Part shown: positions 363-28,186 of the stretch, one piece after another | How positions within the stretch are numbered: the stretch's first letter is position 1 | How the letters are laid out: every line of letters begins with the position of its first letter | Assembly (NCBI GenBank): GCA_029834535.1 | Contig: JAQMWT010000170.1 | Span: 1-33,180 of the forward strand | Direction: 5' to 3' | Source: Chrysophaeum taylorii | Taxonomy: Eukaryota > Sar > Pelagophyceae > Pelagomonadales > Pelagomonadaceae | DNA: 33,180 nucleotides | Notes under the pieces: generated by a model | Seen by the model: only the letters and a program-made list of their open reading frames with translations | Told to the model about the DNA's origin: nothing | The model's database searches: none | Translations under genes and position numbers: made by a program

Positions 363-443
363 ACTGCAGAGCATTAGCAAGCAGTGGTATGTCACCTGTG
401 AAACCACCCCGTCTCATCATGAACGTCTGGAAGTATTTAATTC
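363..443. repeat. 81-bp direct repeat flanking the LINE fragment, left copy
   Basis: It starts ACTGCAGAGCATTAGC and ends AAGTATTTAATTC. The same 81 bp recur at 582-662 with a single difference (ACCACCCCG against ACCATCCCG). A third, more diverged copy without the LINE insert lies at about 16857-16942. The arrangement is that of a very long target-site duplication. Confidence 0.85.
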
Positions 444-581
444 TAACTAACTAACTAACTTCAGACCTCCCGCGAGCATGGGAGCCAGGCCGGACAGGCA
501 GGAGCCGATCAGGAATCACAGAGGGAAATTGCGCAGTTGGGGCAGGGGCGAGGGACGAGGACTCGTTGATGACGGACCGCC
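444..581 (-). mobile_element. LINE 3'-end fragment, (TTAG)n-tailed
   Basis: This 138-bp insert reads, on the minus strand, like the 3' end of the LINE at 11732-14950: the GGCGGTCCGTCAT-type end of the ORF, the CCCCAACTG..AATTTCCCTCTGTGATTCCTGA 3' UTR section, a CTCCCATGCTCGCGGGAGGTCTGAAG block and a (TTAG)n tail, written as CTAA repeats at 444-459 on the plus strand. It is a severely 5'-truncated copy. The host Copia sequence on its two sides is duplicated over 81 bp. Confidence 0.75.
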
Positions 582-662
582 ACTGCAGAGCATTAGCAAG
601 CAGTGGTATGTCACCTGTGAAACCATCCCGTCTCATCATGAACGTCTGGAAGTATTTAATTC
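582..662. repeat. 81-bp direct repeat flanking the LINE fragment, right copy
   Basis: Right partner of 363-443. From here the Copia sequence continues without interruption to about 887, matching 16857-17159 along the whole stretch. Confidence 0.85.
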
Positions 663-1402
663 GGGGAATGAAGAGGTATGTTCCCTATATCCTCAGAACA
701 CGACAGGCGGCATCTAGAACTACACGAGAAAGGTAAAGCGTATAGTGCTACATACCTCGGGGCGCGCTAGACCATGATGATGAGCGTAGGCACAAATCAG
801 AGGACTATTTGATTGTGTAGAAAGGAAGAAGAAGGGTAAGGAAGAGGTCACGTTCTCAACGGACGGATAAGGGTAAGAGGCAGCAGAACACCATAGCTGA
901 ATGATGTGGTGCCAGGAGAAGGGTGAGTGCAAGCAGAGCATTCAGTATGGATGGCGACAGAGAATCTAGTTGAAAGGTGTCCAGTTGGTTTTCCAAAAAA
1001 AGGTTGGACTTGGCGAACGAAGATAGAAGAGTCTTCAGATTCACATGAGAGCGGACGGAATGCTCTGAAGCATGAGAGCAACTTGTCACGTAGATGAAGG
1101 AGGTGATCGTCCGGGGAGGAGTGGTTGGCAGCATGTTGGTCATGAGCGGTGAGTGTTAAGCGAGACAACAGCTCTGTGATCTTGTACAGTGTATAAGTAA
1201 CACGTGGGTGTTGGCTGTAGGAGGGAAGAGCCGGTTCTCCAGGGAGGTGATTGAAGCAATGGCAGCCTCGGTAATATAGATTCGAAGAGTTTCCTGGAGT
1301 TGGTCGACTTGTTGGCACAAGACGTCGAAATCAGCAAGCGAAGCAGACGTAGGTAACGATGGCGAAGATATCTCCAGAGTAGCGTCTAGCGTGGAGTGTG
1401 AG

Positions 1403-1423
1403 TAGTTTAACGACGTTTCGGTC
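1403..1423 (-). repeat. 21-bp Copia linker motif, copy 1
   Basis: Plus-strand form TAGTTTAACGAC GTTTCGGTC. On the minus strand it encodes TETSLNY inside the frame at 1156-1473. Confidence 0.85.
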
Positions 1424-1541
1424 AACGTTAAAAAAAAAGGGGTGCAGGAAGCCTTAATGTTCTGCCTGAGCATAAGTGTGGCCGAACATTACATCCCGGA
1501 GTGATAGCGGTTCTGTATCATCCGAGGATGATGCGTAGTCG

Positions 1542-2186
1542 TCAAGATGTTGCACACGCGATCGAGCAACAGTAGGAATCAAATGCTGAATGGATGGCTT
1601 GTATAGCCTGAGCTGTGCGACTCTGTGTTCGAACACGAGTCACAAGTAAACTGATCGGTGTTGTGATAATGGGGATGTGACCATTCTTCTTATGGTCGTC
1701 CGTGTTGAGGTGACTCAGCACTTCAGTGGGGAGTTCACGAGGTGTTTGTGCCTTGGAACTGTACGTGGTCGAGACTAGGAAAGTCGGTTGTCCACGACCA
1801 TTGAGGCACTGCGTAAAAAAAAAAAAAAAAAGCGACAAAATGGAACGTTCGCGTTTGGGGCATCTGTAGCAGCCAATAGAAGCAATAGCAGGAGCAGCTT
1901 CCCAAAGTATAGTAATGGGTAAAAGCATGGACATGAATGTGGTCAGGTCTACAAACAATGAAAAGTCAGTAGACTCATAGGTCAGTGTGAGTTCCACTCG
2001 CATAAAAGAAGAGAGAAATGGGGTGACAGGGACACGGAAGTTCGCAAGGAGAGAGATTCATCGCTCGTAAGCAGCATAGTCAATACTGAGGCCGTCCTGG
2101 AACGTCGTCAGCGACTGAGGTGAGATATGCACGGCTAGTGTCGGTGCAAACGCAGCAGCCAGTGTGGTAGCAGTTGTAGCAGTCAT
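1542..2186 (-). pseudogene. Possible Gag-like remnant of the left Copia element
   Basis: On the minus strand an ATG at 2186 opens a short frame beginning MTATTATTLAAAFAP. It closes with TGA near 2058, and the same frame continues beyond that stop into another open stretch (1542-2003). The Copia pol stop at 2392 lies about 200 bp upstream, so this could be the start of a second Copia element placed head-to-tail, but I recognise no Gag domain and no zinc knuckle. A 17-nt A-run at 1815-1831 lies inside. Low confidence; it may be non-coding. Confidence 0.25.
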
Positions 2187-2353
2187 GGTTCGTTGCTTTT
2201 GCGACAACCGGGAAGGTTCGGCCGTGGAGAGCGAGAAAGGACTGTCCTTCAACCGACTAGTGAGATGCCGCGGCCACGGGAGTGTCAAGAAAAGACATGA
2301 ACAACACTCGCCCGCGTACAAAACTTTGTGGCAAAAGAAGGTAAGGCCAGGGC

Positions 2354-2374
2354 TAGTTTAACGACGTTGCGGTC
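2354..2374 (-). repeat. 21-bp Copia linker motif, copy 2, just past the pol stop
   Basis: Plus-strand form TAGTTTAACGAC GTTGCGGTC. It lies 17 bp downstream of the Copia A stop at 2392, in the same phase, and would encode TATSLN before a TAG. Confidence 0.85.
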
Positions 2375-3585
2375 ACTAGAGTTAGGCATCTTCAATCCTG
2401 TAAAGGCTTGTCGTCAGAAGCATGATGCATGCCGAGTAGAGAACGAAAAGTGGAGAACTCAGCAGCAAGTGGCTTTGTAAAACCATCCGCCACGTTCAGC
2501 TTGCCGGGACATGATGGACTCGTATTTTCTGTAGCGAGATGTACTCCCGGATTTTAAACCATCTGGTCGACAGTGCCTTGGATCGAGAGGGCCCATCTGG
2601 GTTATTAGAAGTGTGAACAGCGGCAGCATTGTCAGACAAGCGAGGTAGGCTTCTGATGAAGCGCATATCTTCAGCAATTGGGTTGTCATTGTCATCGAAG
2701 TCAACAGGGTCAGCGGTGTTCTCACCATTAGCATTGTTGACGTAGAAGGTGGGGTTGACGACAAAGGAGAGTTCCAACAGCAGCTTGCGTAGCCAAACAG
2801 CTTCATCAGCACAAATACTGAGGGCAATCAACTCAGCTTCGTGAGTTGAGCAGGAGACAATCGGTTGAAGTTTGCTTTTCCAACCAATAAGGCAGTTGAA
2901 AAGATAGAAGACAAACCCGGTGGTAGATTTCCTATCTTCCTGTGCGAAGGAAGGGGCATTGTCAGCGTCAACCATGGCAACTAAGGGGTCAAACTGTCCA
3001 GTATATACATCCTGCGGTTGGTAGTCGACCACAGTGGATAGATCAATTCGATTAGCGGAGACAGTGCGAAGGTGAGCTTCAATGGCATTACCTTTAGGAT
3101 GGAACCAGAGGCGAAGTGAGCGGTTTTCCGGCTTCTTGAGGTAGCGAAGCAAATGCTCTAGCATTTGGACGTGAACATATGTGGGTGCATGCATACCACG
3201 CGAACATCTGCCCAAGGCTTGCGAGAAGTCAGGTCTGCAGGCAACTTGCATGAACACCAGCTTGCCAAGGAGGGTGGCAAAGTGCGAATTGATGTACAAC
3301 TCTGTTTCAGAGCTGGGAGTGCCATCTTTATACTTGAAGGACGATGACATAGGATATTTAAGCGGGGTCAGTTGCTGCAAGACTGGGTGATCAGCGAAGA
3401 GTTCATCCAGCTTGGCTTGCACATCCAGAGAAATGGAACCGTCAGATGTGCGGCACACTCGCATGCCTAGGAGGGTATGGACAGGTTCAAACTGCTATAC
3501 AGCATACCGTTTGTGGAGGGCATATTGTAACTCGGTACGAAGAGGGTCATCATCGGACAAAATAACAATGTCGTCTACAGACAGA

Positions 3586-3953
3586 TACCCTTACCCTGAT
3601 CGCCGACTACGGTTGCGATGGAGGACGGTGCCTCATGAATCCTGAGCCTTGCGAGGCATCCGCCCTCCCGGCGTAGGTTGGCACCTATTCGCCTCCCGGG
3701 CGGGCCGGTTGGCAGCCGGAACGTTCGCAGTGGGACGGGGTATGGCCGGGGGGCGAAGACGGAAGGTTATCGACGAGTTGGTTGTCAGTCACATCGCGCT
3801 CTCCTCGTCGCATGGCGACAAGCTTGATGGTCACTCTCCGCCGACCGACCTTTCGGCGCTCCTCGTCTACAGGCCCGTGATTCCGGGCAGGCTCCTGTCG
3901 GTCCGGCCTGGCTCCCATGCTCGGGAGAGGTCTGAAGTTAGTTAGTTAGTTAG
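3586..3953 (+). mobile_element. SINE-like retroelement copy 1, (TTAG)n tail
   Basis: A 368-bp element starting TACCCTTACCCTGATCGCC and ending CTCCCATGCTCGGGAGAGG, TCTGAAG and (TTAG)4. It is flanked by an 11-bp target-site duplication, CTACAGACAGA, at 3575-3585 and 3954-3964, which defines both ends. Its last 55-60 bp match the LINE 3' end at 11752 onward, so it probably uses that LINE's machinery. I could not identify convincing Pol III A or B boxes. It sits exactly at the RT catalytic box of Copia A. Confidence 0.85.
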
Positions 3954-4642
3954 CTACAGACAGACTGCATACGACGAACTTAGCATGTGCGAATACTCGA
4001 GCATATAGGCAAGAGTCCGAATGCAGGCGTTTGTAGCCAAGGCTACGGAAGAACCCGCCTATCTCTTTGTTCCAAAGAGATGGTGATTGCCGAAGTCCAT
4101 AAAGTGACTTCAGCAGTTTCGGTGGACGTCGGCCCTAGTACTTAGCGTCATCGGGGTCGATGAGCTTGATACCGTCTGGTAGCTGAACATATACGTTGGC
4201 ATCAATGTCAGACTGAACGAAGGCGTTCGGGACGTCTGCATGGTAGACAGGCAATTGCTTGTATGCGGCAATAGCTAGTAGTAACCGGATTGCGGTCATG
4301 GTGGCCATGGGGCTGAAGGTGCCAAAGAAATCGGCGCCACGAGATGCTAGGAAGCCACGTAGCACGAGGCGAGCCTTGTGCTTAACGTATTTGCCTGCAG
4401 AGTCTGTTTTAATCTTCAGCACCATCATCTTGCTGTCAATAGGACGAGAGACACCGTCGGGTAAGGAAAGTTTGAAGCAACCAAAGCGGATAATGTCGTG
4501 GAGTTCCTTGGCGATGGCCTTGAGGTAGGTGTGCCTGTTTTCATGCGACAAACCCTGGAGGCACTTGAGTTTATATTCGTCAATGGAAACGTCAGCTTCT
4601 TGGACCTTATATTCGTCAGGACCAACAATGGCTGGTGAATAG

Positions 4643-4663
4643 TAGTTTAGCGACGTTGCGGTC
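4643..4663 (-). repeat. 21-bp Copia linker motif, copy 3
   Basis: Plus-strand form TAGTTTAGCGAC GTTGCGGTC. It encodes TATSLNY shortly before the RT domain of Copia A. Confidence 0.85.
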
Positions 4664-5089
4664 GAGGCAGTGTGCGCAACTTCGGGATAAGCGGAAACAG
4701 CGTCAGTAGGAGTAGGAGAAGCAGACTCCAGTTGAATATGGATAGTAGGGTCGGTGTGTAAGACCTGGGTGATAAACTCTGTAGAGACCAGAAGGTATTC
4801 CTCCAAGTCAGCCAGAGATGCAGAAGTAGCGCCAAACTCGGAGGAGTTGTGATCAACAAAGGTGGTCGGCGCCAGGTACGTAAGTGCATATTGTAAGGAA
4901 GAAGTGCCAAAGGCAGCAGCGTGTTCAATGAACGCAGATAAGAAGGGGCTGAGGAATGGGGCACGCAGATGAACCATCAGCAGTTAAAAAGGTTGCAGCT
5001 GGGATGCTGGATGCGCACTTGGCGATGGCGAAGTAACCATCGACGTGCGGGTAGCGGGCAAGTAAGTCAGTGCGCAACGGGAGAAGAAG

Positions 5090-5449
5090 CTAACTAACTA
5101 ACTTCAGACCTCTCCCGAGCATGGGAGCCAGGCCGGATCGACAGGAGCCAGTCCGGAATCACGGGCCTGTAGACGAGGAGCGCCGAAAGGTCGGTCGGCG
5201 GAGAGTGACCATCAAGCTTGTCGCCATGCGACGAGGAGAGCGCGATGTGACTGACAACCAACTCGTCGATAACCTTCCGTCTTCGCCCCCCGGCCATACC
5301 CCGTCCCACTGCGAACGTTCCGGCTGCCAACCGGCCCGCCCGGGAGGCGAATAGGTGCCAACCTACGCCGGGAGGGCGGATGCCCTCGCAAGGCTCAGGA
5401 TTCATGAGGCACCGTCCTCCATCGCAACCGCAGTCGGCGATCAGGGTAA
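5090..5449 (-). mobile_element. SINE-like retroelement copy 2, (TTAG)n tail
   Basis: Reverse-orientation copy of the element at 3586-3953, nearly identical through its length. The target-site duplication is GGGAGAAGAAG at 5079-5089 and 5450-5460. The CTAA-repeat tail is at 5091-5103 on the plus strand. It is inserted in the integrase-RT linker of Copia A. Confidence 0.85.
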
Positions 5450-5460
5450 GGGAGAAGAAG

Positions 5461-6330
5461 ACGAGCTAACAACGCATGTTCCCCCTCTGAGCAGATAGCA
5501 GACCAGAGGAGACCACCACTGAGATGAAGGGCGGAGAGGGCGGGAGACTTGAACGTAAGAAAGTGGTGGCGAAGATCCCAGCGGAAATCGGCGAGTTTGC
5601 CACCTGCGGCTTTGTAAGCACCAATAGTAGACGCTTGTAACCGGGCTTGGATAGTTTTCATATAAGTGGCCTTGCGGGTGTTGCGCTGTTTGGAACCTGG
5701 GACAAGAATGAGGTCATCTTGTGCAAAAAGGTCTTTGTAAGAAGGAATCAAGGGCGGCGGTGACATAGAGCCAGAATCGTCGGCGAGAGTGTTAGAAGAG
5801 GGAGAAGAGGCAGGAGCAGGGGACGAAGAAGGAGCTGAAGGAGGTGGGGAGTGCCCCCTCTGAGGATGAGGAGTCCTTGTCCCCCTCTGAATGACATGGT
5901 CTTGGATAGCGGCGTGGGGTGTGAGCGAGAAAGGCGCGGGAGGAGCGTGAGGCGGAGGAGCAAGTTCAGGATCAGGAGTAGGATGCTGCAGCATGTAGTG
6001 GAATTGCAGCTTGGACGAAAAACGAATTTGTCCGTTTTCAGGGTTGAGGACGACGTCGGCGAGATGGTCGACGCGTGGGGAGACGAGCGGGTTTTGCACG
6101 TTGGCGCAACAGAGATATAAATATTTGCGGCGGCACGGTCCCCACTTATGGTGTTCATGGGGCTCCAATAGAAGGTAACATTCAGCACCAAAAATCTTGA
6201 GCATATTGGGGAGTGTTGAGTTGGTTGTAGAGTAGCTGTTGCGGACTCAGGATAGCATGATGAATGCGCTCGAGCGTGGCGTTCGGGAGAAGGTTGTAGC
6301 TTTGAACGGTGTGTATCACCGCCCACGGAA
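5461..6330 (-). pseudogene. Copia A: post-integrase region and integrase-RT linker
   Basis: The minus-strand frame from 6204 reads on from the integrase: MLKIFGAECYLLLEPHEHHKWGPCRRKYLYL resembles the conserved 'FG..CY......KW.P......YLGY' segment that follows the Copia integrase core (target binding and chromodomain-like end). A basic stretch with VVLNPENGQIRFSSKLQFH and a long Pro/Ser-rich linker come next. The SINE at 5090-5449 interrupts the linker. The frame differs from that of the integrase core at 6182-6841, so at least one frameshift separates them. Confidence 0.65.
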
Positions 6331-6960
6331 ACATGATGGCTGGTTCCACGATCTTGGCGCCACGATAGTGAGCATTAAGGAGAGAACGAAGGCGAGTTGA
6401 GGAGGCGGAGGCGATGAAACCGATGGCAGACTCAACTTCAAAGTTAAAGTGGTGCATGTACGGCGGGAAGGCGATGAGTTGAATGCCCTTATCGACGCGG
6501 TACGGGGAGGTAATGTGCTGGCTAAAGTAGGGCTTGAAGGCATCGGAGTAGAGGGTGCGCATGTGCACGTTGAGTTGTGTACGACAAAAGTCATACACAA
6601 AATCCAGAGCTTGAGTGAACTCCGTGGCGTTGGTGGTGCGTGTAAAGTACACCAAGAGAAATTTGGAAATGAGTTCCTTGAAGACGATGATATGTGTGAA
6701 GCCACCCCATTCGGATGGGATGGTCACATAGCCGCCGTCGCACGCCCAGACTTCGCCGGCTTTGTGAGTTTGCTCAAAAGAAGGCTCGCATTGAAATGCT
6801 TGTGCGGGTGGCGCTTGTTGTGTGCGATGCAGTCGGTGCATAAGTCGCGATATGGTATGTCAGAAGCTGAGAATCCAGGGCGAGCAAGTACGTTGGGGGC
6901 CTTGGCAGCGACGTTGTCGGGGCAGTGATGCACCCGGTGGAAGCGAATGGCACGTTCTTT
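6182..6960 (-). pseudogene. Copia A integrase (zinc-binding plus catalytic core), frameshifted
   Basis: Integrase inserts the element's cDNA into nuclear DNA. The 219-aa frame (6841-6182) has the DDE core: D35 in WACDGGYV, D100 in TLYSDAFKPY and E137 in NFEVESAIGF, the usual retroviral-type integrase spacing. The HHCC zinc-binding part lies just upstream in another frame (6933-6724), with VHHCPDNVAAKAP followed by DLCTDCIAH. The zinc part and the core are in different frames, so this copy is disabled. Order and strand fit the Copia layout PR-IN-RT-RH. Confidence 0.85.
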
Positions 6961-7822
6961 GGCATTGAGATATTCGGTGATCTGTGTGCGAGGGACTTAC
7001 GAGGAGTGGGATGAGCGGGAATATGCCATTTGCGCCGAACATCGAACTTGAGTTCGGTGTCTAAGGCAGGGGAAGGCGGTGCGTCGTCATCCTGGTGCGC
7101 AGCAGGGTCACTTGGAGGTGCATCCTCGTCATCACGAGTAACGAGAGTATCTTCGTATGACGAAGATATATAGTTTAACGACATTTCGGTCAAGCAGTTG
7201 CTGGAAATCGACATCATAAAAGCTTGTGCCAAAGACAAGGTATCTGTGCTGCACGTGGTGGAAGCTCGATCAACGGTCATGAAATTGGATACATAGGATT
7301 TCTTCGTCACGGCAGCAGTATGTTGGAAGGTAGGGTCCAACACAAGGGACTTAATATCGGCAACGAGGAGCGAGAGGTGCTTGTACAGAGTACTGTACGT
7401 ACCGGCAGGCAGAGCATTGCTGAGCATGTCACAGCAAAGGTCATGGCGTAGAGACAAGAGGAAGGATTCCTGTTGTTTGGTGTGGTTGTTAGCACGAATC
7501 AACTCCGGTCGAGTTGGGTAGCGTAATTTCCCGTTGCGGGGGTCGAGTAAGATGATATTGGCGTACCCTCGGACGGTGGGCAATGGAGCATGCATGGGGT
7601 GGATTTTAGAGCCGAGTTTGCGGTCACTTCCACGAAGGTACCCTATATAGCGACTATGAGATAAGTGGTGGTCTTCCAGAGCAAAATGAGAGTCCTTGTA
7701 GTCGAAAGAGTTGGCGGTGGCCTTGTAGGTAAGGCAGCCATGCATCACAAGAGAGCATATGGACAAGAGCTTTTGTATGGCGGTGACATAGTATTTATAA
7801 CTTACTTGTAAACTCAACAACA
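6961..7822 (-). pseudogene. Copia A: unrecognised region between methyltransferase and integrase
   Basis: The frame reading down from 7822 stays open for about 280 residues before it leaves the integrase frame near 6960. It includes DHHLSHSRYIGYLRGSDRK, DPRNGKLRYPTRPEL and an acidic Pro-rich linker (DEDAPPSDPAAHQDDDAPP). The peptide LTEMSLNY sits at 7171-7191. I recognise no domain. It could be the tail of the methyltransferase region, a target-recognition part or a spacer. Its position between two polyprotein domains and the continuing open frame suggest it was once coding. Confidence 0.5.
7171..7191 (-). repeat. 21-bp Copia linker motif, copy 4
   Basis: Plus-strand form TAGTTTAACGAC ATTTCGGTC. 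It encodes TEMSLNY between the methyltransferase side and the integrase of Copia A. Confidence 0.85.
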
Positions 7823-8178
7823 CCTGATCGCCGACTGCGGTAGCGATGGAGGATGGTGCCTCATGAATCCTGAGCCTTGCGAGGGCATCCGCCCTCCCGG
7901 CGTAGGTTGGCACCTATTCGCCTCCCGGGCGGGCCGGTTGGCAGCCGGAACGTTCGCAGTGGGACGGGGTATGGCCGGGGGGCGAAGACGGAAGGTTATC
8001 GGCGAGTTGGTTGTCAGTCACATCGCGGTCTCCTCGTCGCATTGCGACAAGCTTGATGGTCACTCTCCGCCGACCGACCTTTCGGCGCTCCTCGTCTACA
8101 GGCCCGTGATTCCGGACTGGCTCCTGTCGGTCCGGCCTGGCTCCCATGCTCGGGAGAGGTCTGAAGTTAGTTAGTTAG
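7823..8178 (+). mobile_element. SINE-like retroelement copy 3, (TTAG)n tail
   Basis: Third near-identical copy, starting CCTGATCGCCGACTGCGG and lacking the first few bases of copy 1. It ends TCTGAAG plus (TTAG)3. No clear target-site duplication is visible; TGACATAG occurs right of the tail and also at 7784-7791, but 31 bp away from the element's 5' end. It separates the methyltransferase frame from the rest of Copia A. Confidence 0.8.
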
Positions 8179-9502
8179 TTGACATAGGTGGCAGCGGAGC
8201 CAACTTGGGGAGGGCTTGGACTATCCACAAATAACCCATAAACGGCTCCAAATATATGGATCTGTCGCGGTCGCGGGGAATGTCGGAAGCAGTGAACGTA
8301 TACGTGCTTCCAAGCGCGTCAATAGACGCGTGATATTTGGTGGAGGCATTCTCTATGATGAGGTTGCCGTCAGAGTGGGGGCCACCAGTTAAGAAGTGGG
8401 AGTTGTATGATGTTGATGAGGTTGTGAGTAGTAACCTGTGTGACGGTTGGTTAGTTTCGAAAACGGTTATGTAATAGGACACAGGAGTGGGTGAGTTGGT
8501 GTGTAAGCTGGCAAACAAGTTATAGAGGATTGTAAAAAACTTGACGTGTATAGGGTAGGTAGCATTGGGTAGCGGCTCCATAGAGGAGCGTTTAAAGCAC
8601 AACGGATGATAAGTACACTCGGATTGAACAGAGTGAGTACGTTGCTCGTGAGCCTGTTGTGAGTGAAGGCGAAGCAGTAACATATTGAGGGATTCAAGGT
8701 CAGCCATAGTAAGCTGAGCAGAACCTGTGCGAGAGTAAGGTGCAAACGTTTTAGGAACGGGGATATATGGAGGATCGGGGAACACCCGGATCCAGTCTTT
8801 GGATACGTGTTTAGGTAGCCAAAGGCGCTTGGGAATAGCTTGTAGATCATCCACGATCTTTAGGAAGGGGCGTGGATGGAGGATAGGCCACGACAATAAT
8901 TTAATTGGTCCAGTAGAATATCTGCGTGCGATGCATATCCATCTTTCTCTAGATTGGTAGTCGCCACAGAGGTAGGTCGGGAACCTATCAACAACATCGA
9001 CACAGTAATCAAGCGTTGCATAGATAAGATTGGCCACTGTGATGTGGTCTTGATGACAGTACTTATGTGGAGGCGTCATCTCAGCCAGTAGTACCAAGGG
9101 CTGGAGTAGCTTGATGACAGACATGCTGTCGAAAAGAGAATCGTCCAGCAGGCTGTGTAAGTCTTCTGTCTTATGCTGTTTTCGTAAATTCCTGTTCGTG
9201 CAGGGAGGAGTGATCTCAATTATATCACAATAGAATGTGCGCCTTTCCTCTGGTGAGATTAGGTGAAGATGGTTAATAAAGGCGGGGAGAGATTCAAATA
9301 ATAATACTGTAGGGAAACGGTGGCGTAACATACGAACAAGCGTATCATCAGACTCAACAACAACTTTTACATTGATATTTAAGCCTAAGTCATTAGTGGC
9401 TTGAGACAGGAACGCCGGAGTTGACAAACCAGAACAAAGTAACATGACAGAAGGTTTGCGGAGATGGGACTCTTGTGAGAGAAACACTGGGCGTGAAAGT
9501 AG
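8171..9502 (-). pseudogene. Cytosine-C5 DNA methyltransferase domain inside Copia A polyprotein
   Basis: A frame of about 440 residues, in phase with the Gag/protease ORF upstream and separated from it only by a TGA at 9503-9505. Numbering from the codon at 9487: residues 15-27 (MLLCSGLSTPAFL) fit SAM-binding motif I; E45 in VVESDD fits the acidic SAM-ribose contact; 88-96 (DIIEITPPC) fits motif IV with the catalytic Pro-Cys at 95-96; E136 in LLAEMTPP fits the ENV-type motif VI; and 178-186 (QSRERWICI) fits the Q-x-R-x-R motif VIII. Such enzymes transfer methyl from SAM to C5 of cytosine in DNA. The C-terminal third is unrecognised and a typical motif X is not evident. The domain lies between protease and integrase; DNMT-bearing LTR elements are known from a few eukaryotes. 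A SINE cuts the 3' side. Confidence 0.8.
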
Positions 9503-11352
9503 TCAATTTAATGGCTGAGTATTTTGCTGAACAAACTTGTTCTGTTTCCGAAGATCGAGAACCAAAGGGCGAATCCACGGGCGATCTGGTAAAACTCTTT
9601 GGAGTAGGTAGTTGTAGTATGCCAGAAGATCCCTGTTTTTATAGTATCGCTTGAGGGGAAATGCGAGGGAACGAAGTTCGAGTTGCTTGTCGCGAGCGAT
9701 GTTGTAAGTGAGACAAGGGAGAGCAGGTAAATTAGCTGCTATGTAGTGTATGGGGATACGTACATCTTTGTCTATGCGGCTCGTGACAGCGCTGAGCTTT
9801 GGCTCAGCTCGATCATTGAACACAGTGGTCAGGTTCGTCTGGTTCCACTCGAGCATGCTCAGGATAGCGAGATGTCGGTCATGCACTGGCTGAAGACATA
9901 AAGCGAAGTCGATCTTAACATAGCCAACTTGTGGATGATCTGGTAGGGGAACAACAATGTTACGTGTTAACATCATGTGTGAGGCACGTTGCTGTCCTGT
10001 AGCTGTTTGAATAACAATCGGCGCGTATTTGGAGTCCAGTGGAATTATATGATTGGGTATTGCAAAATCGTAAGTGGACATCAATGAGATGGTAGCACAA
10101 GAGTCAAAATATAGAAAAGAACAATGTGAAGGGACACTGTTTACCTTCATGTAGTTGGTGAGGAAGGCGTTTTCTGAATGTGGGCAGGTAGTGGAGAGGC
10201 TGGCTGTGAAGAAGTTCTCCAGCAATAACAGGTTCGTTGGAATAATAATCGGTCGAGCCGGTGATGATGATTCGTCAGCCTCATCAGCCATGCCGTGCTT
10301 TTCATCAAATGACGATAGCGAAGTATGATTGGCATCCCTTTTGGGTTCGGCTTGTGATGGTGTGTTGAGGGCAGATTGGGCCTGTGAAGATAGCGAGGAC
10401 AATAATGCTGGTGGTAAAGCCGAGATGGCGGAAGCGGTAAAGAGGTTAGGCACGGTATTGGAAGGATTACCCTGTGTGTTTGTAGTAGGAGGAGTTGCCT
10501 TTGGGGTGGGAGCAGTAACAACAGTATGGTGTTGTGGCTCCACGTAGTTTAACGACTTTTCGGTCGAGGATAGATGAACGTCTACATCATAAATGATGTC
10601 TTCTGCAAACATGAGCTGTTCGTTTAGACGAAGTAAACTACTGTTGTCCTCAGTATATGTCGCTGATAGAATGTCAGCTGATTGTAATAGAGTCTCAAAT
10701 ACCTTGTTGGTATTCTGTTGTAGCTGAGCCGTGGTATCATTACCTGTCACATGCTTTGTAAGTTCACTACACCGTTCTCGCAGGGTGTTTAAGGTGTGAT
10801 TTGTTCGATCTAATAATTTCATGCTAGACCGAGAGGACCTGTCAAAAGTGCGGGGGTAAATTGGACGGTCATGGGACTGTCCAGCAGTTTTCTTGGTGAT
10901 GTAAGAATCACCAGAACGATAATACGATAAATCGCTGCGAGAGAAAGGCTGGCGAGCATCATTTGAGTTACGCAAGCGTCTAGCATTGAACGTGGAAGAT
11001 GTACCAGGTTGAGACGAAGTGATGAAGGCGAGTGTGTTAGCAGTTTGAGTCAGACTTTTGTCTGCTGAATCCAGAGAGTTAGTAAGTAGTAACTTTGGCT
11101 TTGGTTGAGATGATAAACCTTCGACATAGGGTTGCCAAGAAACAGGGCGTTCTAAACGTCTTTTGTTCGACCCATTTGATACGACATTGTATAGGTCTAA
11201 TGCGTATTCTAAAATGTAGCTCGGGTTGGTAGGGTGACACAATCGTTCAGCTTCTGGCACAGGTCGAGATGAAGATCGGGTTTCCTTACTACTAATTGAC
11301 AGATGTTTGTCTGTCTGTTTGTCTGTCTGTCTGTTTGTCCCCCGGTTTAGGG
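9503..11352 (-). CDS. Copia A Gag C-terminal region and aspartic protease
   Basis: An open frame of about 610 residues. The clearest domain is a retroviral-type aspartic protease: FLYFDSCATISLM carries the active-site D-S-x-A-T box (Cys for the usual Gly), followed by an IVIQTATGQQ flap-like segment and HLAILSMLEWNQTNLTTVF, the usual 'hDhIlGmdwl' region. The N-terminal part is low in recognisable motifs, with a LNTLRERCSELTKHV helical stretch and no CCHC knuckle. The peptide STEKSLNY is encoded at 10545-10565, between the Gag-like part and the protease. The frame is open into flanking DNA at 11353-11383, so the 5' junction with foreign DNA is near the CTGT-rich microsatellite at 11302-11338. 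It ends at TGA 9503-9505, beyond which the same phase continues into the methyltransferase. Confidence 0.75.
10545..10565 (-). repeat. 21-bp Copia linker motif, copy 5
   Basis: Plus-strand form TAGTTTAACGAC TTTTCGGTC. It encodes TEKSLNY between the Gag-like part and the protease of Copia A. Confidence 0.85.
11302..11338. repeat. (TGTC/TGTT)n microsatellite
   Basis: A short run of TGTC and TGTT units, translated as TNRQTDKQTDKH in the Copia A frame on the minus strand. It marks the edge where Copia A meets unrelated GC-rich sequence. Confidence 0.8.
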
Positions 11353-11383
11353 TAAGGATCAGGTAGGCGCGCGAGCCAGGCAT

Positions 11384-11640
11384 TGATCCTCCAAGCCGTC
11401 TACGGCGACCTCGCAGACTGTTTCCACGACCCGCGGCGGCTCTTTCAGCGCGCCATTCTCACGCCCCGTCGAAACAATGTTGTCGATGCTGACAACGCGC
11501 GCATGACCGCGGCCTTTTTTTCCCGGAGACGAGGCGTCGGAGTTCTTTTCGGCCGACTAGGTTTGGTCGGAAGACGACGCCTCGCTCTTTACAGTCGAGT
11601 TTTCGACTCCCCGACAACCAACGGCATGCTGACTTTGATC
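11384..11640 (+). pseudogene. Helitron-type PIF1-like helicase fragment
   Basis: The plus-strand frame encodes AVYGDLADCFHDPRRLFQRA followed by ILTPRRNNVVDADNARM. This matches the well-conserved helicase passage of Helitron Rep-Hel proteins, 'l..RaILtp.N..V...N', where the helicase unwinds DNA during rolling-circle transposition. Only about 85 residues are convincing; downstream the similarity fades, and the LINE 3' end begins at 11732. No Rep domain or Helitron terminus is visible, so this is a small relic. Confidence 0.55.
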
Positions 11641-11731
11641 GCGAGCTTAAAGTCTTCGCAACCTCGACCCGTCGCACGGCCACTGCAACGGTACCAGATA
11701 CATGATCGATCGTGTCGTGTCACCGAGGCTC

Positions 11732-14700
11732 CTAACTAACTAACTAACTAACTAACTTCGGACCTCTCCCGGGCATGGGAGCCAGGCTGGGCCGGTAGTA
11801 GCCGGTCCAGGATCACAGAGCAAAAAATCACACAGTTGGGGTAGAAGCTTGGGATGAAAGTGCATGGATGGCGGACCGCCACTGCGCGCGGTCTTGTGCG
11901 AGGTCGTGCCACGAGTTGAAGGGGATGTCGCATTTCCGGAGTGCCTTGGCGAGCGACCTCCCGTACGTCATCTGCGGAGCCCCCGGTGGGCGCTTGGAGC
12001 GGACCCAAGACGAGAGCATCTTGCGAGGGAGTCGGGAGAAGGGCATGCGGGCGACGTGACCGGCCCAGCGGAGCTGGCGGCGCGTGACGTAGACGTCGAT
12101 GGACTCGAGGCCGAGGCGCCGCCGCAGGATCTCCGTTGAGATGTGGTGGGACCAGGTGTGTTTCCGGGTCACACGACACATGACGCGGGCGCACTGCGCG
12201 TGGAAACACCGCAGCCGGCGGAACAGGACCTCGGTGAGGCACCACGATTCCGCACCGTGAAGGAGGATGGCCAGGACGAGCGAGACATAGACGAGGCGCT
12301 TGGCGCGAGCAGAGACGGACTTCGAGGCGAAGATGCAGTCCCGCAAGGCACCGAAGGCCTGAGACGCCTTCTTGATCCGCGCGTCGACGTCTGAGTCGTC
12401 GCGGCAGTCGCGCGAGAGGACCGAGCCGAGGTACTTAAACTGGTCGACGACCGGTATGAAGCGGCCGCGCCCGAGCTCGATGTCCGAGAGGTTCGTGTCG
12501 TCGAACGACTTTGGGTCGCCGTACAGGTGTGCCGGGCGAGCGACGAACAGCATCTCCGTTTTGGACGCCGCTTTCGTGTGTCGGTTGCCGCAATGCACCT
12601 CCATGCCCCAGGCGTCGCAGTGTTCGATGAGGCGCGGTGTCTCGCTGGCGGCGATGTGGCGGTCCCAGAAGAGAAAGGCAACGTCGTCGGCGTACGCCGA
12701 TTCATCGAAGGGAAACTCGTCGCCGCGAGCGGACCAACTCCGGTTCGTCATCTGAAAGTCTTTCCGCGTACGGTAGACACATGGGGTGCGGCCATGGCGT
12801 CGTCGAAACGACGTCGTCAGTGCCGCCATGAACAGCACGAACAGGACGGGGCCCAGGACGTCGCCCTGCTTGACGCCGATGATCGAGTCAACCGAGGCGA
12901 CGACACCGCTGACCGAGAAGTGGACCTGGATTCGGTGGAGGCCCTTGATGACTGCGACGAGCTTCGGCGGGACGCCGAACTTCAGGAGCACCTCCCAGAG
13001 AAGCTCTCGCGGGACGCGGTCGAACGCCTTAACGAAATCGATGAACAGTACCCACGAGTCCTGACCGTGCTCACGCCGCTTCTTCAGCGCTAGCTTGAGC
13101 GAGAAGGTGGCGTCGGACGTACCGCGCTCGGGTCGAAAGCCACATTGAGACTCGTGATCGAGGGCCTCGCAGATGACGTTGAGTCGCGCACGGACGATGT
13201 TCGAAACGATCTTCTGCGCGACCTCGAGCATCATGATCCCGCGGTAGTTGTCCGGCAGGGAGAGGTCCCCCTTCTTGGGGAGAATCCCGATGAGGCCTAC
13301 GTCCCACTCGGCCGGCTGGACTTCAGACTCCCAGAACTCGAGGACTACACGCTCCAACAGCGGGAGCGTGCGAGCGTCGGTGGCGAGCGCCTTCCAGACC
13401 TCCGCGCGCAGGCCCGATTCGCCGGGCGCGGTGCAGTTCAGCTGACCAACGGCCCGTTTTATCGCCTCCTGCGTCGGTGGTTCCCCGAGTTCCGGACGGA
13501 TCGGCAACTGGTCAACGTCGTTGATCACGGTGGGGTCGTAGCGAGCTTGTCGACTGTAGAGCTGCTTGAAGTGCGCCTTGAACACGTCGGCGTTCTCCTG
13601 TGGCGACGAGCACCTGCTACCGTCGGCCTTCGTCATCTGCACCTGCCTAGCCAATGTGGTCTTCGTGAGACCGCGTCGGAGCCGTTCGACCGTATTCCAG
13701 TATTTCGAGGTGCCGCCGAGCGACTCGCTTCCCGCGTTGAGTCCGGCACACAGACGAGTAATCCATCGCTCTTTCGCCCGTGCTACGGCCTTCGCGAGCC
13801 GCGACTTGATCGCCCGAAGGTCGTCGAGGATCGTGGACGCCGAGCGAAGACGGCGCCGGGCACCGAGCGAGAGCACAAACGCGTGGAGGGAGTTGCGTCG
13901 CTCGATCAGAGGCTGGAGTTCTTCCGCCGCGTCCTCAAACCATCCGGGTCGGAGGCGTCGGGTCTTCGGCAGTAAGGCGTCAGAGGCCGAGGCCGCCGCC
14001 CGCGCAAGGCGGGAGTACGGCGAGGACGGCGAGCCCTGGTCGGCGTCGGCCTGGTCGGCGTCGGGTATCTCGTCCGTGGCGTCGGTCGGTGCGTCGTCGG
14101 TCGCGTTGTCATGTGACCCACGGCCCAAGCCGAAGATGTCGAGCACTCTCGAGCACCACCGGCGCCGGAATCCGAAGCGCGTGCTTTCTGAGCGCAGGGG
14201 AGCGTAGTCAAGGCGCGCCAAAGAGGGCCGTGTGCCAGGAGGCCGTGCGAGGCGGACTTTGACGCGCAGGATGCACTTGAGAGCGCGGTGGTCCGAGTCC
14301 ACGAGGCTGCTGGTCAAACCCACATCAGCGAACCGGTGCACGTCGCGCCGCCGTGAGATCATGTGATCGAGCTGGTACGTTTTCCAGGAGCGCGGGTGCA
14401 GCCACGACGCGTAGGCGCGCTTGCGGAAGAACGTGCCGACCGACGCCAGACGCCGTGTTGCGAGGAACGTGTGGAGACGGCGGCCAGCGTTGTTGACGTA
14501 AGGCGCCCCGTAGGGCCCACAGGGGCCGTCGACGACGTACTTGGAGCGCACGCCGAGAGCCGCGTTCCCGTCCATCCCCAGGACGAGGATGTCGTCCGGC
14601 CGTCGCGCTTGAAGCGCAAGGTCAATGTCGTCGAAGAACGCGTCCCATTTCTCGTCAGGCGCGGTTCCGACTGGAGCGTAAGCGCTCATGACAAAGAGGC

Positions 14701-14950
14701 CGAGGTCTCGATCGTCATCGTCCTGGACATCGAGTCGCAGCGCAATAACTCGAGGCTCCTCCAACCTGTATCCCTTAAGGCCCGCCGACGCCAAACGATC
14801 AACAAGAGCCAGGGCCAGACGCCCCGCGAGGTCCGCGTCCTCTTGCCCACAAGCCCGTCTTCTGTCACGTCCAGCTCTACGTGGCTCTCTGTCGATCGGC
14901 AACCCCGAGGATATCCTCTTCTGGGTCGACGACTCCACCCTACCCCACAC
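11732..14950 (-). mobile_element. Non-LTR retrotransposon (LINE) with APE endonuclease and reverse transcriptase
   Basis: The 1,040-codon minus-strand ORF at 11828-14950 is uninterrupted. The N-terminal 270 residues are an AP-endonuclease-like domain: SAYAPV, LGMDGNAALG, YQLDHMI and the SDHRAL box that ends the active site. The reverse transcriptase follows at about 500-800: ILPKKGDLSLPDNYRGI, FIDFVKAFDRVPRELL, the catalytic AYADDVAFLF and QFKYLGSVLSRD. The C-terminal part (RRQLRWAGHVARM, RPPGAPQMTYGRSL) is typical of many APE-type LINEs; I cannot name the clade. The element nicks its target and reverse-transcribes there. The 3' UTR is short and ends in a (TTAG)6 tail, seen as CTAA repeats at 11732-11756. 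The 5' end of the endonuclease looks slightly short, so 5' truncation near 14950 is likely. No target-site duplication is visible. Confidence 0.92.
11828..14950 (-). CDS. LINE ORF: APE endonuclease-reverse transcriptase polyprotein
   Basis: Coding part of the LINE described above, 1,040 residues without frame damage. It is very GC-rich at third positions, unlike the adjacent Copia genes, and its antisense strand carries many long spurious frames for that reason. The endonuclease active-site residues (N in GNA, D and H in SDH) and the RT YADD are all present, so the copy may encode active enzyme. The start codon is uncertain because the N-terminus may be truncated; the first 35 residues (MWGRVESSTQKR..) have no visible family similarity. 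Confidence 0.88.
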   Translation of the reverse strand: MWGRVESSTQKRISSGLPIDREPRRAGRDRRRACGQEDADLAGRLALALVDRLASAGLKGYRLEEPRVIALRLDVQDDDDRDLGLFVMSAYAPVGTAPDEKWDAFFDDIDLALQARRPDDILVLGMDGNAALGVRSKYVVDGPCGPYGAPYVNNAGRRLHTFLATRRLASVGTFFRKRAYASWLHPRSWKTYQLDHMISRRRDVHRFADVGLTSSLVDSDHRALKCILRVKVRLARPPGTRPSLARLDYAPLRSESTRFGFRRRWCSRVLDIFGLGRGSHDNATDDAPTDATDEIPDADQADADQGSPSSPYSRLARAAASASDALLPKTRRLRPGWFEDAAEELQPLIERRNSLHAFVLSLGARRRLRSASTILDDLRAIKSRLAKAVARAKERWITRLCAGLNAGSESLGGTSKYWNTVERLRRGLTKTTLARQVQMTKADGSRCSSPQENADVFKAHFKQLYSRQARYDPTVINDVDQLPIRPELGEPPTQEAIKRAVGQLNCTAPGESGLRAEVWKALATDARTLPLLERVVLEFWESEVQPAEWDVGLIGILPKKGDLSLPDNYRGIMMLEVAQKIVSNIVRARLNVICEALDHESQCGFRPERGTSDATFSLKLALKKRREHGQDSWVLFIDFVKAFDRVPRELLWEVLLKFGVPPKLVAVIKGLHRIQVHFSVSGVVASVDSIIGVKQGDVLGPVLFVLFMAALTTSFRRRHGRTPCVYRTRKDFQMTNRSWSARGDEFPFDESAYADDVAFLFWDRHIAASETPRLIEHCDAWGMEVHCGNRHTKAASKTEMLFVARPAHLYGDPKSFDDTNLSDIELGRGRFIPVVDQFKYLGSVLSRDCRDDSDVDARIKKASQAFGALRDCIFASKSVSARAKRLVYVSLVLAILLHGAESWCLTEVLFRRLRCFHAQCARVMCRVTRKHTWSHHISTEILRRRLGLESIDVYVTRRQLRWAGHVARMPFSRLPRKMLSSWVRSKRPPGAPQMTYGRSLAKALRKCDIPFNSWHDLAQDRAQWRSAIHALSSQASTPTV

Positions 14951-15000
14951 GTGCTGCGCAATACCGATAAGCCCCCTCCCGGCGTCTACACGCGCACTAT

Positions 15001-15331
15001 AGGTGAACTATAACTGGGACCAGGTGAATTTACTGAGGTTAGAGATTGGGATTAGGTGAATATAGTGACCAGGTGAACTTACTGGGACCAGGTGAACTTA
15101 CTGGGGGTTTTAGAGTAAACTCAAAGGCTAGCGGTGTGTGCGGATCAAGGCAGCTTAGATTGGCGGAGGCGAGAGCGACGAGCTCGAAGGAGTGGGTGTG
15201 AGCACGAGTGGGTTTACGCCGAACTTACTGGGGTTAGAGATTTGGACTAGGTGAACTTACTGACCAGGTGAGCTTACTGGGACTAGGTGAACTTACTGGG
15301 GTTAGAGATTGGGACTAGGTGAACTTACTGG
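15001..15331. repeat. Tandem AGGTGAACTTACTGGG repeats, two blocks
   Basis: Nine or more imperfect copies of AGGTGAACTTACTGGG, often followed by GTTAGAGATTGGGACT, in two clusters (15001-15107 and 15219-15331) separated by unrelated sequence. The repeats lie directly beyond the LINE 5' end. They could be a minisatellite or the subterminal repeats of a DNA transposon end. Confidence 0.8.
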
Positions 15332-15395
15332 CCTGCACTTGTCGTACATATAACACCAATCTACCCAACCACGATCGTAACGGCTGTTGCTGGTA

Positions 15396-16424
15396 TTATC
15401 GGCATAATGCCGATGTATCTTCATAGATTTTCCTGCAAAGAGTGCCAAAGTCGAATTGAAGGTCAGTCTCTTCCTGGTTAAGTTGGTAAGAGATTTGCCT
15501 AAATGCTAGGGCAGCTTCGATAAATACATGGACATACCAGTTAGGATTATAAACAACAGAGTCAAATTGCTGTTTCAAATAGGACACATCCGTAGTCGTA
15601 CCAGACTCGTAGTGACTAAAGGCGATGAGCATAATGGCTCGAGCCTTGTTGGGTAAATAACTTTTGTTATATACCTCATTGATGGCGGGCTAGGCCGCAA
15701 GTGCTGGTTTTCCAACACTTTCAAGATTGAAGTAAGTATGCAAGAATGTAGCATACGTGTTCTGATAAGTGTGCCAGTCAGCAGCAGTTAACGAAAACAT
15801 AGTAACAGGGGCACAAACACGGATGTCGAAAGCTAATGCCTTCGGGTGCGCGCGATTTAAGATTCGTTCCTCTTCTAAGAAACGGGCATTGATTTCAGGA
15901 CGTAATGCCTTGACTTCATAGTCGTAACAGACAGTAGCTAGCTGAGCTACTTCTGCATCAGGTAAGTGGGGGAAAGCTTCGTTGGTGAAATGCCATTCCT
16001 GATACTCAGGGGGCAATTCATCAACAGGTAAACGGAGATCAGCAGCCCTATCGGTCTTCCATTCCAGGAAAACGCGATCGAGAATTTGATTCCGGAGGAT
16101 CTCGTAGTCCTTGCATGACCGAGTATATGCTTCGTACGAGTCGTACTCGAGGAAGGCATCGGCATGACTGGACCGTAACAATTGCTTAATGTGCTTGATT
16201 TGCAAGGATACCTTGCGAGTCTGAAGCTGAAATCGATTTCCATCGTTAAGAAACTCAACTACAGGAGCTTCGAGCTTCAATATATCCGCACCTGTGATCG
16301 CCTTGGGTGCGGCTCGTGCTGCGTGTTCTGGCATAGCAGTTGACGGGGAACCTGTGGGTTCAGTCACGCAGCTGACACTGTCTAGACATTCTAAGGGGGT
16401 CTGTCTATCGGTGTCTATGTACAC
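15396..16424 (-). pseudogene. Gag-like ORF with one in-frame stop, possible displaced 5' end of Copia A
   Basis: A minus-strand frame from about 16424 to 15396, interrupted once by TAG at 15690-15692 and continuing in the same phase (PAINEVYNKSYLPNKARAIM) to a TAA near 15396. An ATG inside the frame gives MPEHAARAAPKAITGADI; the next residues, LKLEAPVVEFLNDGNRFQLQ, open an alpha-helical protein without Cys-His motifs. I assign it to Gag only by its style and because it lies upstream of, and on the same strand as, Copia A, with the intervening 4 kb filled by other elements. A separate host or TE gene is possible. Confidence 0.45.
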
Positions 16425-16856
16425 TCATCGTTTTCGATGGAAAGATGTATATTTGACGACTGTGCAAGCTGTGAGTCCAGAGTAGTGTCGCTAAGCGTAG
16501 TCACTCAGGCAGCTGGTTAGTTTTGGTGCTCTCAAGGAGCTTGTTAAGTGCATTGCCATGGAATGTACGAGTGGACGTACCCAAAGTATTCCATAACATG
16601 TATGCAAGAGTACAGGCTGGCCAATTACACACACATCAACATTGACATGACAATACGATACTACGAACAGGTGCACACAAGGTTACACGATCACGTGTGC
16701 AAAAAAGTATTATATACTGCCCAATAATAATAGCGTTGTATTCACAAGTGTGTTTACGTGTCGAGGCTGAGACGGCGCGGTAACGGCCCAATACCCATAG
16801 GTTACGTGCACGTTTTAACACATGGTTTCTCAGGGACACGCCTGGGCCCATAACCT
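16425..16856. other. AT-rich spacer, possible LTR or promoter upstream of the Gag-like ORF
   Basis: No coding frame is convincing here. On the minus strand the stretch holds a TATA-like AGTATATAATAC near 16715 and lies directly upstream of the Gag-like ORF, so a 5' LTR is conceivable. I found no matching second copy downstream of Copia A and no obvious primer-binding site, so the LTR idea is unproven. Confidence 0.25.
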
Positions 16857-17159
16857 GCAGAGCATTAGCAAGCAGTGGTAAGTCACCTGGGAAACCACCC
16901 CGTCTCATCATGAACGTCTGGAAGTATTCAATTCGGGGAATGAAAAGGTATGTTCCCTATATCCTCAGAACACGACAGGCGGCAACTAGAACTACACGAG
17001 AAAGGTAAAGTGTATAGTGCTACATACCTCGGGACGCGCTAGACCATGATGATGAGCGTAGGCAAAAACCAGAGGACTATTTGATTGTGTAGAAAGGAAG
17101 AAGAAGGGTAAGGAAGAGATCACGTTCTCAACGGACGGATAAGGGTAAGAGGCAGCAGA
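16857..17159 (-). pseudogene. Second copy of Copia integrase-RT linker fragment
   Basis: About 303 bp closely matching 582-887, including the same internal stops, starting exactly at CTGCAGAGCATTAGC and stopping at GAGGCAGCAGA. It lacks the LINE insert, so it represents the empty site for the 444-581 insertion. It borders the transposase gene. Confidence 0.8.
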
Positions 17160-17271
17160 TTTCTCTGCAGAGACTGCAGAGTGATGTAGTCTTCAATGGC
17201 GGAGAGGTGAGGTTCGGAGGCACAATAAGAAGCATCGTTATGATCCAAAATAGAATGGGGCCGGCCGGGCC

Positions 17272-26300: not shown

Positions 26301-28186
26301 CCAGCGCAGAGGCATGCCGAACGGCATAGGCTGCAGCACAGGCATAATGGTATGCCGAGTCAGCATAAGCAACCGTCATCTCCGTGCTCAGAAACTGCTG
26401 GTCGTAACCGCGAACCCGTTGTAGACCGCGCTGCCGGGCCGAAGTTCCAGCCTCGAGAATCTTGCGGGCAGCAACACGGTATAACGGCGAATCGTCGTCT
26501 GAACCCGCACCACCACCAATCACAGGTGGTGGTGGCGACATTGAGCGCGAGGCTGGAAGAATTGGCGGCATCACATCATTATTTTGTGATTCCTGCTGCG
26601 GTTGGACCAGACGTCGGACAGATGCTATTGGCCGTCGCTCGGAAGACGTTACAACACTGTCGGACAAAGTAGGTGGGCGCTCCGTCAAGCCCCTATCAGC
26701 CATACCTGCAGTCTTCATAAGCTGCTGGTGAAGAGGTAAGCCGCGTTTTTTTAAATGGCTAAGATGCAAATTGTCGATGTTTGGCTGCTTCAGGAGATTG
26801 CCTTGGTCCAAGAGGTGTGTAGAGGCCAGAAGCTCAGCGAACACAACATGCTGACGGCAAAGCCTACACCCAAAATTATGCCCATAAGGAACAATGATGC
26901 GCTTGATACACTCACCATCCCCAATGGCGATGGGCTGGTTCTGGCGCGCTTGCATGCTCGGTTGGCATGGCAAGGCGCATCCGGGATCGAGATAAATGTG
27001 ATATGATTTGAGCTGCAGCGTCGCAGACGCGACCCTCATTGAGAATGAGGTGGCAGAGCTTGAAGTTTGCATACTCGGCGACACCACGAACTTGGGCTGT
27101 TAAGCCTGGGTCCAGAACAGACTCAAGCGCGGCGTAACACGCTCGATAGTGCTTGATGGCTTTATCTGGCTCGTCGCTGAACTCGTAAAACCAGGCAATC
27201 TTAAAATTATAGCGAGCACTCAGAGGTGCGCTCCGGGCTTGGACGCTTCGATCCCATTTTTTTAGTTTGCGAGCCCGAGATATGTAATGCTGATGTGCAA
27301 GCTCAGTGACAGTGAGTGCTAGCCGCGAGTAGGCCTCATCGCTCCAAGCTACAACCACTGAGGTTGTTCCGCATGCAGCGCAACGCTTCCGCAGTGAGGC
27401 AACCAAGCGGTCGTCGTTCTTTTCCCCAGTGTTCACTGTCCCACGAGGAACACTCCCACTGGGCAGCTCAGATCGTTGTGAAGAGAGTGTTGGCATTCCT
27501 TGGACAGGATCGCAATGGACAGGCTGTGTACCCCGCACAAAGCCTGCCTTCAAATCTTGAGCTTTCCTCTTCTCGGAGTCGCAGACGTCATCGTCGTTTG
27601 CGAAATCGGCTAGAGCATCATCTTCTTCATCGTCGACATCGTGTCGAATTGACATGTCTTTCAATTGGCCTTTGAACACCTTAGCCACTTGTGACGCTGA
27701 TGGCGAATCTGCTGCCGGAGCGACGCCACCTTGTCCAGCATCAACAACAACAACGGCCACAACCCGAACATCGCGGCCGGCCAAGTCGCTACGCAGTCTA
27801 TCGAGGATTGTAATCAAGGGGGCTGAGTCGATGCTTCGAAGGTTCTGTGTGCTGGTAGCCACAATTACCACACTTGGTATTTCTACAAAGTGCCGCTGCA
27901 GCCAGCTTGTCTTGAGAATGCCGCGTACCTCATACGCTTCGAGCAGTGGCCTCCCGTCAGAGGCCCGGCTTTTGCCATCATACTCCTTCTTCCGTCGAAA
28001 GAGATGATCCGGCCCAACACGCAAATACCGTAACCTGCAACCCAACCGCTCAAGTCGACTCACGACCCAATCACCCGCTAGCTCCTGTCCTCGTGTGCCA
28101 GGCGAGGATGCCCAAGGCCCATCTTCGCTCACCACTGCGACCAGAGGTACAGGGCTTTCGACAAGTTCTGCGGGATAATTTTGCAT
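23386..28186 (-). CDS. TRAPPC11: TRAPP complex subunit 11 (Foie gras/Gryzun protein), two exons
   Basis: TRAPPC11 is a subunit of the TRAPPIII tethering complex acting in ER-Golgi traffic and autophagy. Exon 1 (28186-26916) starts at ATG 28186 (MQNYPAELVESPVPLV); a frame extension upstream has only TTG. VRGILKTSWLQRHFVEIPSV at about residue 88 matches the family's GILKT-W signature. SARYNFKIAWFYEFSDEPDK and AIKHYRACYAAL, then GVAEYANFKLCHLILNEG, form the alpha-solenoid Foie gras domain. Exon 2 (26863-23386) continues with LCRQHVVFAELLAST, a low-complexity insert and a long beta-rich C-terminal half with Ig-like (Gryzun) character. The spliced product is about 1,582 residues, longer than the animal protein (about 1,130), mainly through inserts. 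It is the only clear host gene in the window. Confidence 0.88.
26864..26915 (-). other. 52-nt GT-AG intron in TRAPPC11
   Basis: On the minus strand it begins GTGAGT and ends GGTGTAG. Splicing joins CATTGGGGATG to GCTTTGCCGTCAG in phase (HRHWGW-LCRQHVVF) and links the two long frames that overlap here. The joint restores the conserved W..Q...FaeLl stretch of the Foie gras domain, which supports the boundaries. Confidence 0.8.

Follow-up and report, generated by a model that had tools for sequence, protein, structure and literature searches.

A Copia retrotransposon family of Chrysophaeum taylorii with a predicted C5-cytosine methyltransferase ahead of its integrase

The pelagophyte alga Chrysophaeum taylorii carries a Copia-type long terminal repeat (LTR) retrotransposon in which a predicted C5-cytosine DNA methyltransferase (MT) domain stands between the Gag-protease frame and the integrase. 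The copy analyzed here (365..17169, minus strand) lies in a 33,180-nt stretch of contig JAQMWT010000170.1, hereafter called the window; the genome searched comprises 70.8 Mb in 697 contigs. An initial annotation of the window had proposed that a C5-MT precedes the integrase within a Copia polyprotein. Profile comparison and the predicted fold support this proposal, and the strongest support comes from further genomic copies in which the domains are arranged alike; neither of the two outcomes that the annotation had named as refuting it was observed. The sequence itself shows an MT domain that is strongly conserved and always placed before the integrase, as well as a conserved UGA codon upstream of it. 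The best explanation, which we regard as fairly probable, is that the window holds a degenerate copy, interrupted by nested insertions, of a multi-copy Copia family whose Pol begins with a C5-MT, a particle enzyme that would methylate the element's DNA.

The MT region (8194..9502, minus strand) is contained in an open reading frame (ORF) of 443 codons at 8171-9502, the interval first assigned to the domain; the frame exists, but its low end belongs to a short interspersed element (SINE; 7823-8180), its final few codons lie beyond a frameshift, and its MT-derived part ends near 8194. The motifs picked out by the initial annotation occur in the expected order: I (LLCSGLSTPAF), II (VVVESDD), IV (EITPPC, with the Pro-Cys pair that holds the catalytic Cys), VI (LLAEM, with its Glu), and VIII (QSRERW, with its Arg). 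When a profile of 12 family copies was aligned by hhalign with six independent C5-MTs, all five motifs fell in register (E = 4e-4, 173 columns), and in a column-shuffle control none of 200 shuffles (mean score 15.2, maximum 23.3) reached the real score of 36.5. Pfam family PF00145 was matched by 2 of the 12 family members and was the sole Pfam family found (best E = 0.0045); its gathering score is not reached by the focal family, whereas a sister Copia family, described below, passes it. A structural model of the MT, built from an alignment that included host DNMT2 and DNMT5 rows, has a Rossmann-type methyltransferase fold like that of M.HhaI and DNMT1 (predicted template modeling score [pTM] 0.63, predicted local distance difference test score [pLDDT] 59.5), and all 50 of the 50 matches listed by Foldseek for it belong to the C5-MT family. 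The motif IV Cys and the motif VI Glu are invariant in all 12 aligned copies. Taken together, these data identify the domain almost certainly as a divergent C5-cytosine methyltransferase. Searches of the PDB with the family profile and with the Pol frame of copy L029 gave nothing or weak matches. The C-terminal part of the MT, where a target-recognition domain and motifs IX-X would be expected, has no Pfam match, and an oxygenase-like reading of this part, made by eye, was abandoned as it found no support in Pfam.

As in the Ty1/copia superfamily, the integrase (PF00665, a weak match) precedes the reverse transcriptase (RT; PF07727), both in the window and in other copies. The RT is of the RVT_2 type (E = 2.1e-20 in the window, 7.7e-42 in L029), and in L029 the MT, integrase, and RT are encoded within a single 1691-residue frame with rve, SH3, and RVT_2 matches. 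Compared with its own genome, the MT frame gives at least 99 matches, of which 95 are main places and 4 are fragments; apart from the window copy itself, they are 81-97% identical to it. In all, 14 copies were fetched including that of the window, 8 with ∼1.5 kb on each side and 6 with long flanks. Six other copies (L029-L040) show Gag-protease, MT, linker, and integrase, followed by RT and RNase H where fetched and unbroken. Among the matches listed, at least 53 of the 95 MT places have an integrase downstream and 53 of 150 integrases have an MT upstream; members of the focal family without an MT may exist. A diverged subfamily, represented by L062, is 77% identical in the integrase, 52% in Gag-protease, 77% in the MT core, and 61% in the MT C-terminal part, its MT itself being frameshifted. 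The protease that the initial annotation had placed upstream of the MT is recognizable by eye and position, and its DSC motif has the same Asp in all five aligned rows, but neither Pfam nor NCBIfam matches this region at E ≤ 10; the RNase H region likewise lacks a profile match, and a PDB search matched neither. The architecture reads Gag-protease, UGA, and then MT-integrase-RT-RNase H, with visual inspection and position as the basis for naming the protease and RNase H.

The MT frame is in phase with Gag-protease, as had been noted at the outset, but the two are separated by a conserved in-frame TGA codon (9503..9505, minus strand), which is followed by CTA. The stop is TGA in all 13 copies that can be read at this point, the fourteenth (L035) having an insertion there; the next triplet is CTA in nine of the 13 and CTG, CCA, ATA, or ATG once each, and the junction of L062 is again TGA-CTA. 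Because the UGA is conserved and the frame beyond it is in phase, programmed readthrough is the best reading, and the UGA is probably a readthrough signal; that the MT is a particle enzyme produced in this way is likely. Gammaretroviruses make Gag-Pol by reading through a single in-frame stop between Gag and Pol frames of the same phase. The arrangement here differs in that the stop is UGA, mostly as UGA-CUA, that it comes after the protease-like region, and that the MT is the first Pol domain.

Selection on the coding regions was estimated as the ratio of nonsynonymous to synonymous substitution rates (dN/dS; NG86, ratio of means, with pairs that share history and hence are not independent). 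The ratio is 0.12 for the MT core and 0.24 for the MT C-terminal part (14 copies, 91 pairs each), 0.11 for the protease-like region (13 copies, 78 pairs), 0.15 for the RT (4 copies), 0.14 and 0.20 for Gag (6 and 12 copies), 0.32 for the integrase (median 0.22; 11 copies), and 0.35 for the linker (7 copies). Judged by these ratios, the MT core is under strong purifying selection, near that of the RT and the protease-like region.

Other elements of the same genome also carry C5-MTs. In the sister Copia family (L042, L043), PF00145 above its cut-off and RVT_2 are joined in single frames of 1952 or 1868 residues, with a weak rve match between them in L042; members of the family include L042 (1400-9843), L043, and L044. 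A genome search with PF00145, from which 20 loci were excised, gave this family at 18 of them and host genes at the other two, one DNMT2-like (L009, by eye, with a PPCQPHTRQ motif) and one DNMT5-like (L041, a methyltransferase plus SNF2); the sister MT core has at least 153 matches, fragments included. The Gag frame of L042 and L044 runs into a Pol frame of another phase, which suggests frameshifting rather than readthrough; close to this overlap, L042 has a TTTTTC run. Focal and sister families are collinear downstream of the MT (linker-integrase 23% identical, RT 35%). Direct hhalign comparison of their MTs is weak (score 25.3, against 24.9 for one shuffle; probability 2.5%), so the case for their homology rests chiefly on position and on the shared match to C5-MTs. 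Searched against the PDB, the sister-family profile found two C5-MTs weakly (E = 0.15 and 0.29). Gypsy-type families L045 and L048 carry a different C5-MT (PF00145 above cut-off) ahead of RVT_1, RNase H, and integrase, that of the L045 family with at least 116 matches; in the Gypsy-type elements L046 and L047, a C5-MT below the Pfam cut-off likewise precedes the RT. The hhalign comparison of the focal with the Gypsy MT gave nothing. A tree of 17 rows, none of them a DNMT3 reference, unites the two Copia MTs (94/92, under the program's star) and sets the Gypsy MTs apart (100/100), on long branches. Among the six reference enzymes, the C5-MT of Klebsiella phage KP15, whose annotation likens it to NlaX and M.ScrFIA, scores best with both Copia profiles (31.9 with the focal one, compared with 13.6 for host DNMT2), but it is a free phage enzyme and only 17% identical to the focal MT; among viral contigs, no relative of either Copia MT was confirmed.

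In the mechanism that we favor, a fraction of ribosomes would pass the UGA, such that the MT would be synthesized solely within Gag-Pol, enter the virus-like particle together with RT and integrase, and be released from the polyprotein by the protease. Its targets would be cytosines in freshly synthesized element DNA, methylated either ahead of integration or as it occurs, and the cell would treat the marked DNA as already silenced or as self, letting the element persist. Self-methylation of the element cDNA is, in our judgment, somewhat probable. Several observations weigh against this reading and the domain assignment beneath it. The window copy of the MT, taken alone, matches nothing in Pfam (at E ≤ 1 or E ≤ 10), NCBIfam, or a phmmer search of the PDB; the hhalign probability for the family is just 35% (64% with L062 added); and, beyond the host rows in the alignment behind the structural model, AlphaFold2 run from the 12 family copies alone failed (pLDDT 33). 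Motif VI has AEM in place of ENV and lacks the Asn, and motif I, which usually contains two glycines, retains one. The observed/expected CpG ratio is 0.84-0.99 in the element and 0.87 in a neighboring ORF stretch, compared with 1.05 for the window, 1.08 for an MT-less Copia, 1.04 for the sister Copia family, and 1.31 and 1.08 for the Gypsy types; C>T differences among copies amount to 3.2% at CpG, 2.3% at CpA, 2.4% at CpC, and 3.5% at CpT. A clear methylation scar is thus not seen in the element, and CpG decay appears weak.

The altered motifs VI and I would also suit a protein that kept the fold and lost catalysis, serving as a DNMT3L-like scaffold that binds cDNA, S-adenosylmethionine, or a host DNMT; in L007 motif I lacks even the single glycine, and motif VIII occurs as QYRER, QFRER, and QSRGR. 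These last changes spare the Arg positions, however, the invariant Cys and Glu and the strong purifying selection argue for a retained activity, and the sister Copia family keeps ENV, so we consider a non-catalytic scaffold unlikely. If the MT is catalytic, its substrate might instead be RNA, either the genomic RNA or the primer tRNA, as for a DNMT2- or DNMT6-like enzyme. Co-expression with Pol would place the MT beside the genomic RNA, and the weak CpG decay would fit, but the profile lies closer to the KP15 DNA enzyme than to host DNMT2 among the six references, and an RNA substrate seems to us distinctly unlikely. Much the same degree of doubt attaches to an MT directed at the host, which would change the methylome or hinder competing elements or DNA viruses rather than act on its own DNA: many DNMT-bearing retroelement places are listed in this one genome, and an antiviral role has been proposed for retroelement-borne methylase domains (PMC6338049), but an enzyme fused to Pol and made past a leaky stop would more plausibly act inside the particle than as a free protein. 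Finally, since the window copy is broken and rich in insertions, a free-standing gene could have landed in one Copia copy by chance, a separate insertion such as the initial annotation had itself envisaged. This is extremely improbable and is refuted by the shared position of the MT, which follows Gag-protease in every one of the 13 readable copies and precedes the integrase in six of the six copies with long flanks, and by the same order in the sister family.

Precedents named by the initial annotation, in Symbiodinium and Klebsormidium, are indeed DNMT-bearing elements, but they are LINE (long interspersed element), DIRS, and Gypsy elements, not Copia (PMC5890265); that paper also reports CG methylation in yeast and describes the abundant Copia elements of Symbiodinium as free of any DNMT domain. 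Like the family described here, KnitGypsy-Dnmt3 of Klebsormidium nitens is a multi-copy element under purifying selection with a C5-MT in an LTR-type Pol polyprotein, but its domains are those of Gypsy in DIRS-like repeats, its host is a charophyte, and its MT is assigned to Dnmt3 (PMC5890265). The Copia family has instead Copia order, the MT before the integrase, a UGA upstream, and an MT placed in no class. SymbioDIRS-Dnmt3 and SymbioLINE-Dnmt similarly bring many C5-MT copies into one algal genome, as DIRS and LINE elements (PMC5890265), whereas the focal RT is RVT_2 and not of a Gypsy, DIRS, or LINE type. In the relevant part of PMC6338049, the elements named as bearing C5-MTs are all of Gypsy or DIRS type; elements encoding a methylase, for adenine or for cytosine, are said there to occur in stramenopiles, red and green algae, and charophytes. 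A single sentence of 2025 assigns some DNMT3 members to Copia-type LTR elements and to DIRS elements (PMC12344493); it names the same superfamily but, in the part available, gives neither architecture nor host, and the 2018 paper that it cites says Gypsy. In the parts available of PMC3145265, PMC9998398, and PMC12477816, no MT-bearing Copia of this kind was found. In the open-licence literature, subscription papers and supplements aside, we found described neither a Copia with an MT ahead of the integrase nor readthrough ahead of such an MT; as far as searched, what is new is the architecture, the UGA arrangement, and an algal host that is probably of the red lineage. Light-harvesting proteins, with 84 matches, point to a red-lineage plastid in this alga; the PDB hits obtained with one of them mostly bear the names FCP, VCP, or ACP, although the top hit is LHCI-11 of 9vfj.

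The window element itself is larger than first described: both LTRs lie in the window and Gag is split by a LINE. Its limits are set by the LTR pair and by a 5-bp target duplication (GTCTC on the element strand, at 360-364 and 17170-17174), shown cleanly for this copy only. The 5' LTR (16856..17169, minus strand, as are all element parts below unless stated) has TGCAGAG...CTCTGCA ends; the 3' LTR region spans 365..887, the LTR proper at 583-887 lacking its first 10 bases. The two are ∼96% identical (294 of 305 aligned bases), and the TG...CA ends and short duplication are as in the Ty1/copia superfamily (4-6 bp). At 364-662, the last 80 bases of the 3' LTR recur (∼364-443), flanking a LINE-tail-like insertion, an unusually long duplication. 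Directly after the 5' LTR lies a putative primer-binding site, GGTTATGGGCCCAGG, which we presume to resemble the half-tRNAiMet primer site of copia. Among 13 genomic places with CTGGGCCCATAACCC, matching the expected tRNA core, two were excised (L060, L061); ARAGORN found no tRNA in either, and on visual inspection L060 resembles a primer-binding site belonging to a different LTR family.

The N-terminal part of Gag (15308..16424; tblastn with L031 Gag, 94% for a stretch of 336 residues and 74% for one of 38) is frameshifted near 15420 and is followed by one or more later insertions (11285..15307, borders approximate), including the LINE with RVT_1 (ORF 11828-15007). The stretch 9506..11284 encodes the remainder of Gag and the region resembling an aspartic protease, in which FDSCA was picked out by eye. 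At the end of the MT region sits the SINE (7823..8180, plus strand), followed by the linker (6777..7822), ending in a pre-integrase HHCC-like part recognized by eye, the integrase core (6185..6859; PF00665, E = 6e-4, under the curated cut-off), the first part of the RT (4138..4983), and the RT end with the RNase H region (2499..3494). Sister SINEs lie at 3655-3951 (plus strand) and 5090-5445 (minus strand), and the LINE, three SINEs, and frameshift together disrupt this copy. All three SINEs share a (TTAG)n-ending 3' tail with the LINE (11740-15007), as in a SINE-LINE partnership. Between RNase H and the 3' LTR is a degraded further frame (848..2410) without known domain that several copies share; here and in L036 (4064-6145), extra frames of 427 and 266 codons have dN/dS of 0.40 and 0.50 (six copies), and Pfam finds in them only a weak coiled coil. 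Elsewhere in the window, another Copia (29150-33180, plus strand) runs from a protease-like motif, seen by eye, to gag_pre-integrs, and the stretch separating the two gives no MT match; long minus-strand frames at 23386-28327, by eye perhaps a TRAPPC11-like host gene, have no Pfam match at 0.01.

The MT-bearing Copia is, on the sequence evidence, real, shared, and conserved, and adds to the DNMT-bearing retrotransposons, a puzzling set of elements that carry the very class of enzyme used to silence them. A Copia family with an MT just before its integrase in many copies may mark its own new DNA copies, and the different C5-MT of the Gypsy-type elements suggests a repeated advantage. Tentatively, and with more doubt than confidence, one may go further: two LTR superfamilies would have captured C5-MTs separately, at a like place before the first Pol enzyme (integrase in Copia, RT in Gypsy), the leaky UGA-CUA would make the MT a routine particle component methylating element cDNA, and retroelements may hold most DNMT-like loci of the genome. 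With a conserved, Pol-linked MT in many copies, the family offers, in a 70.8-Mb algal genome, a compact system for the question of whether particle cDNA is self-methylated.
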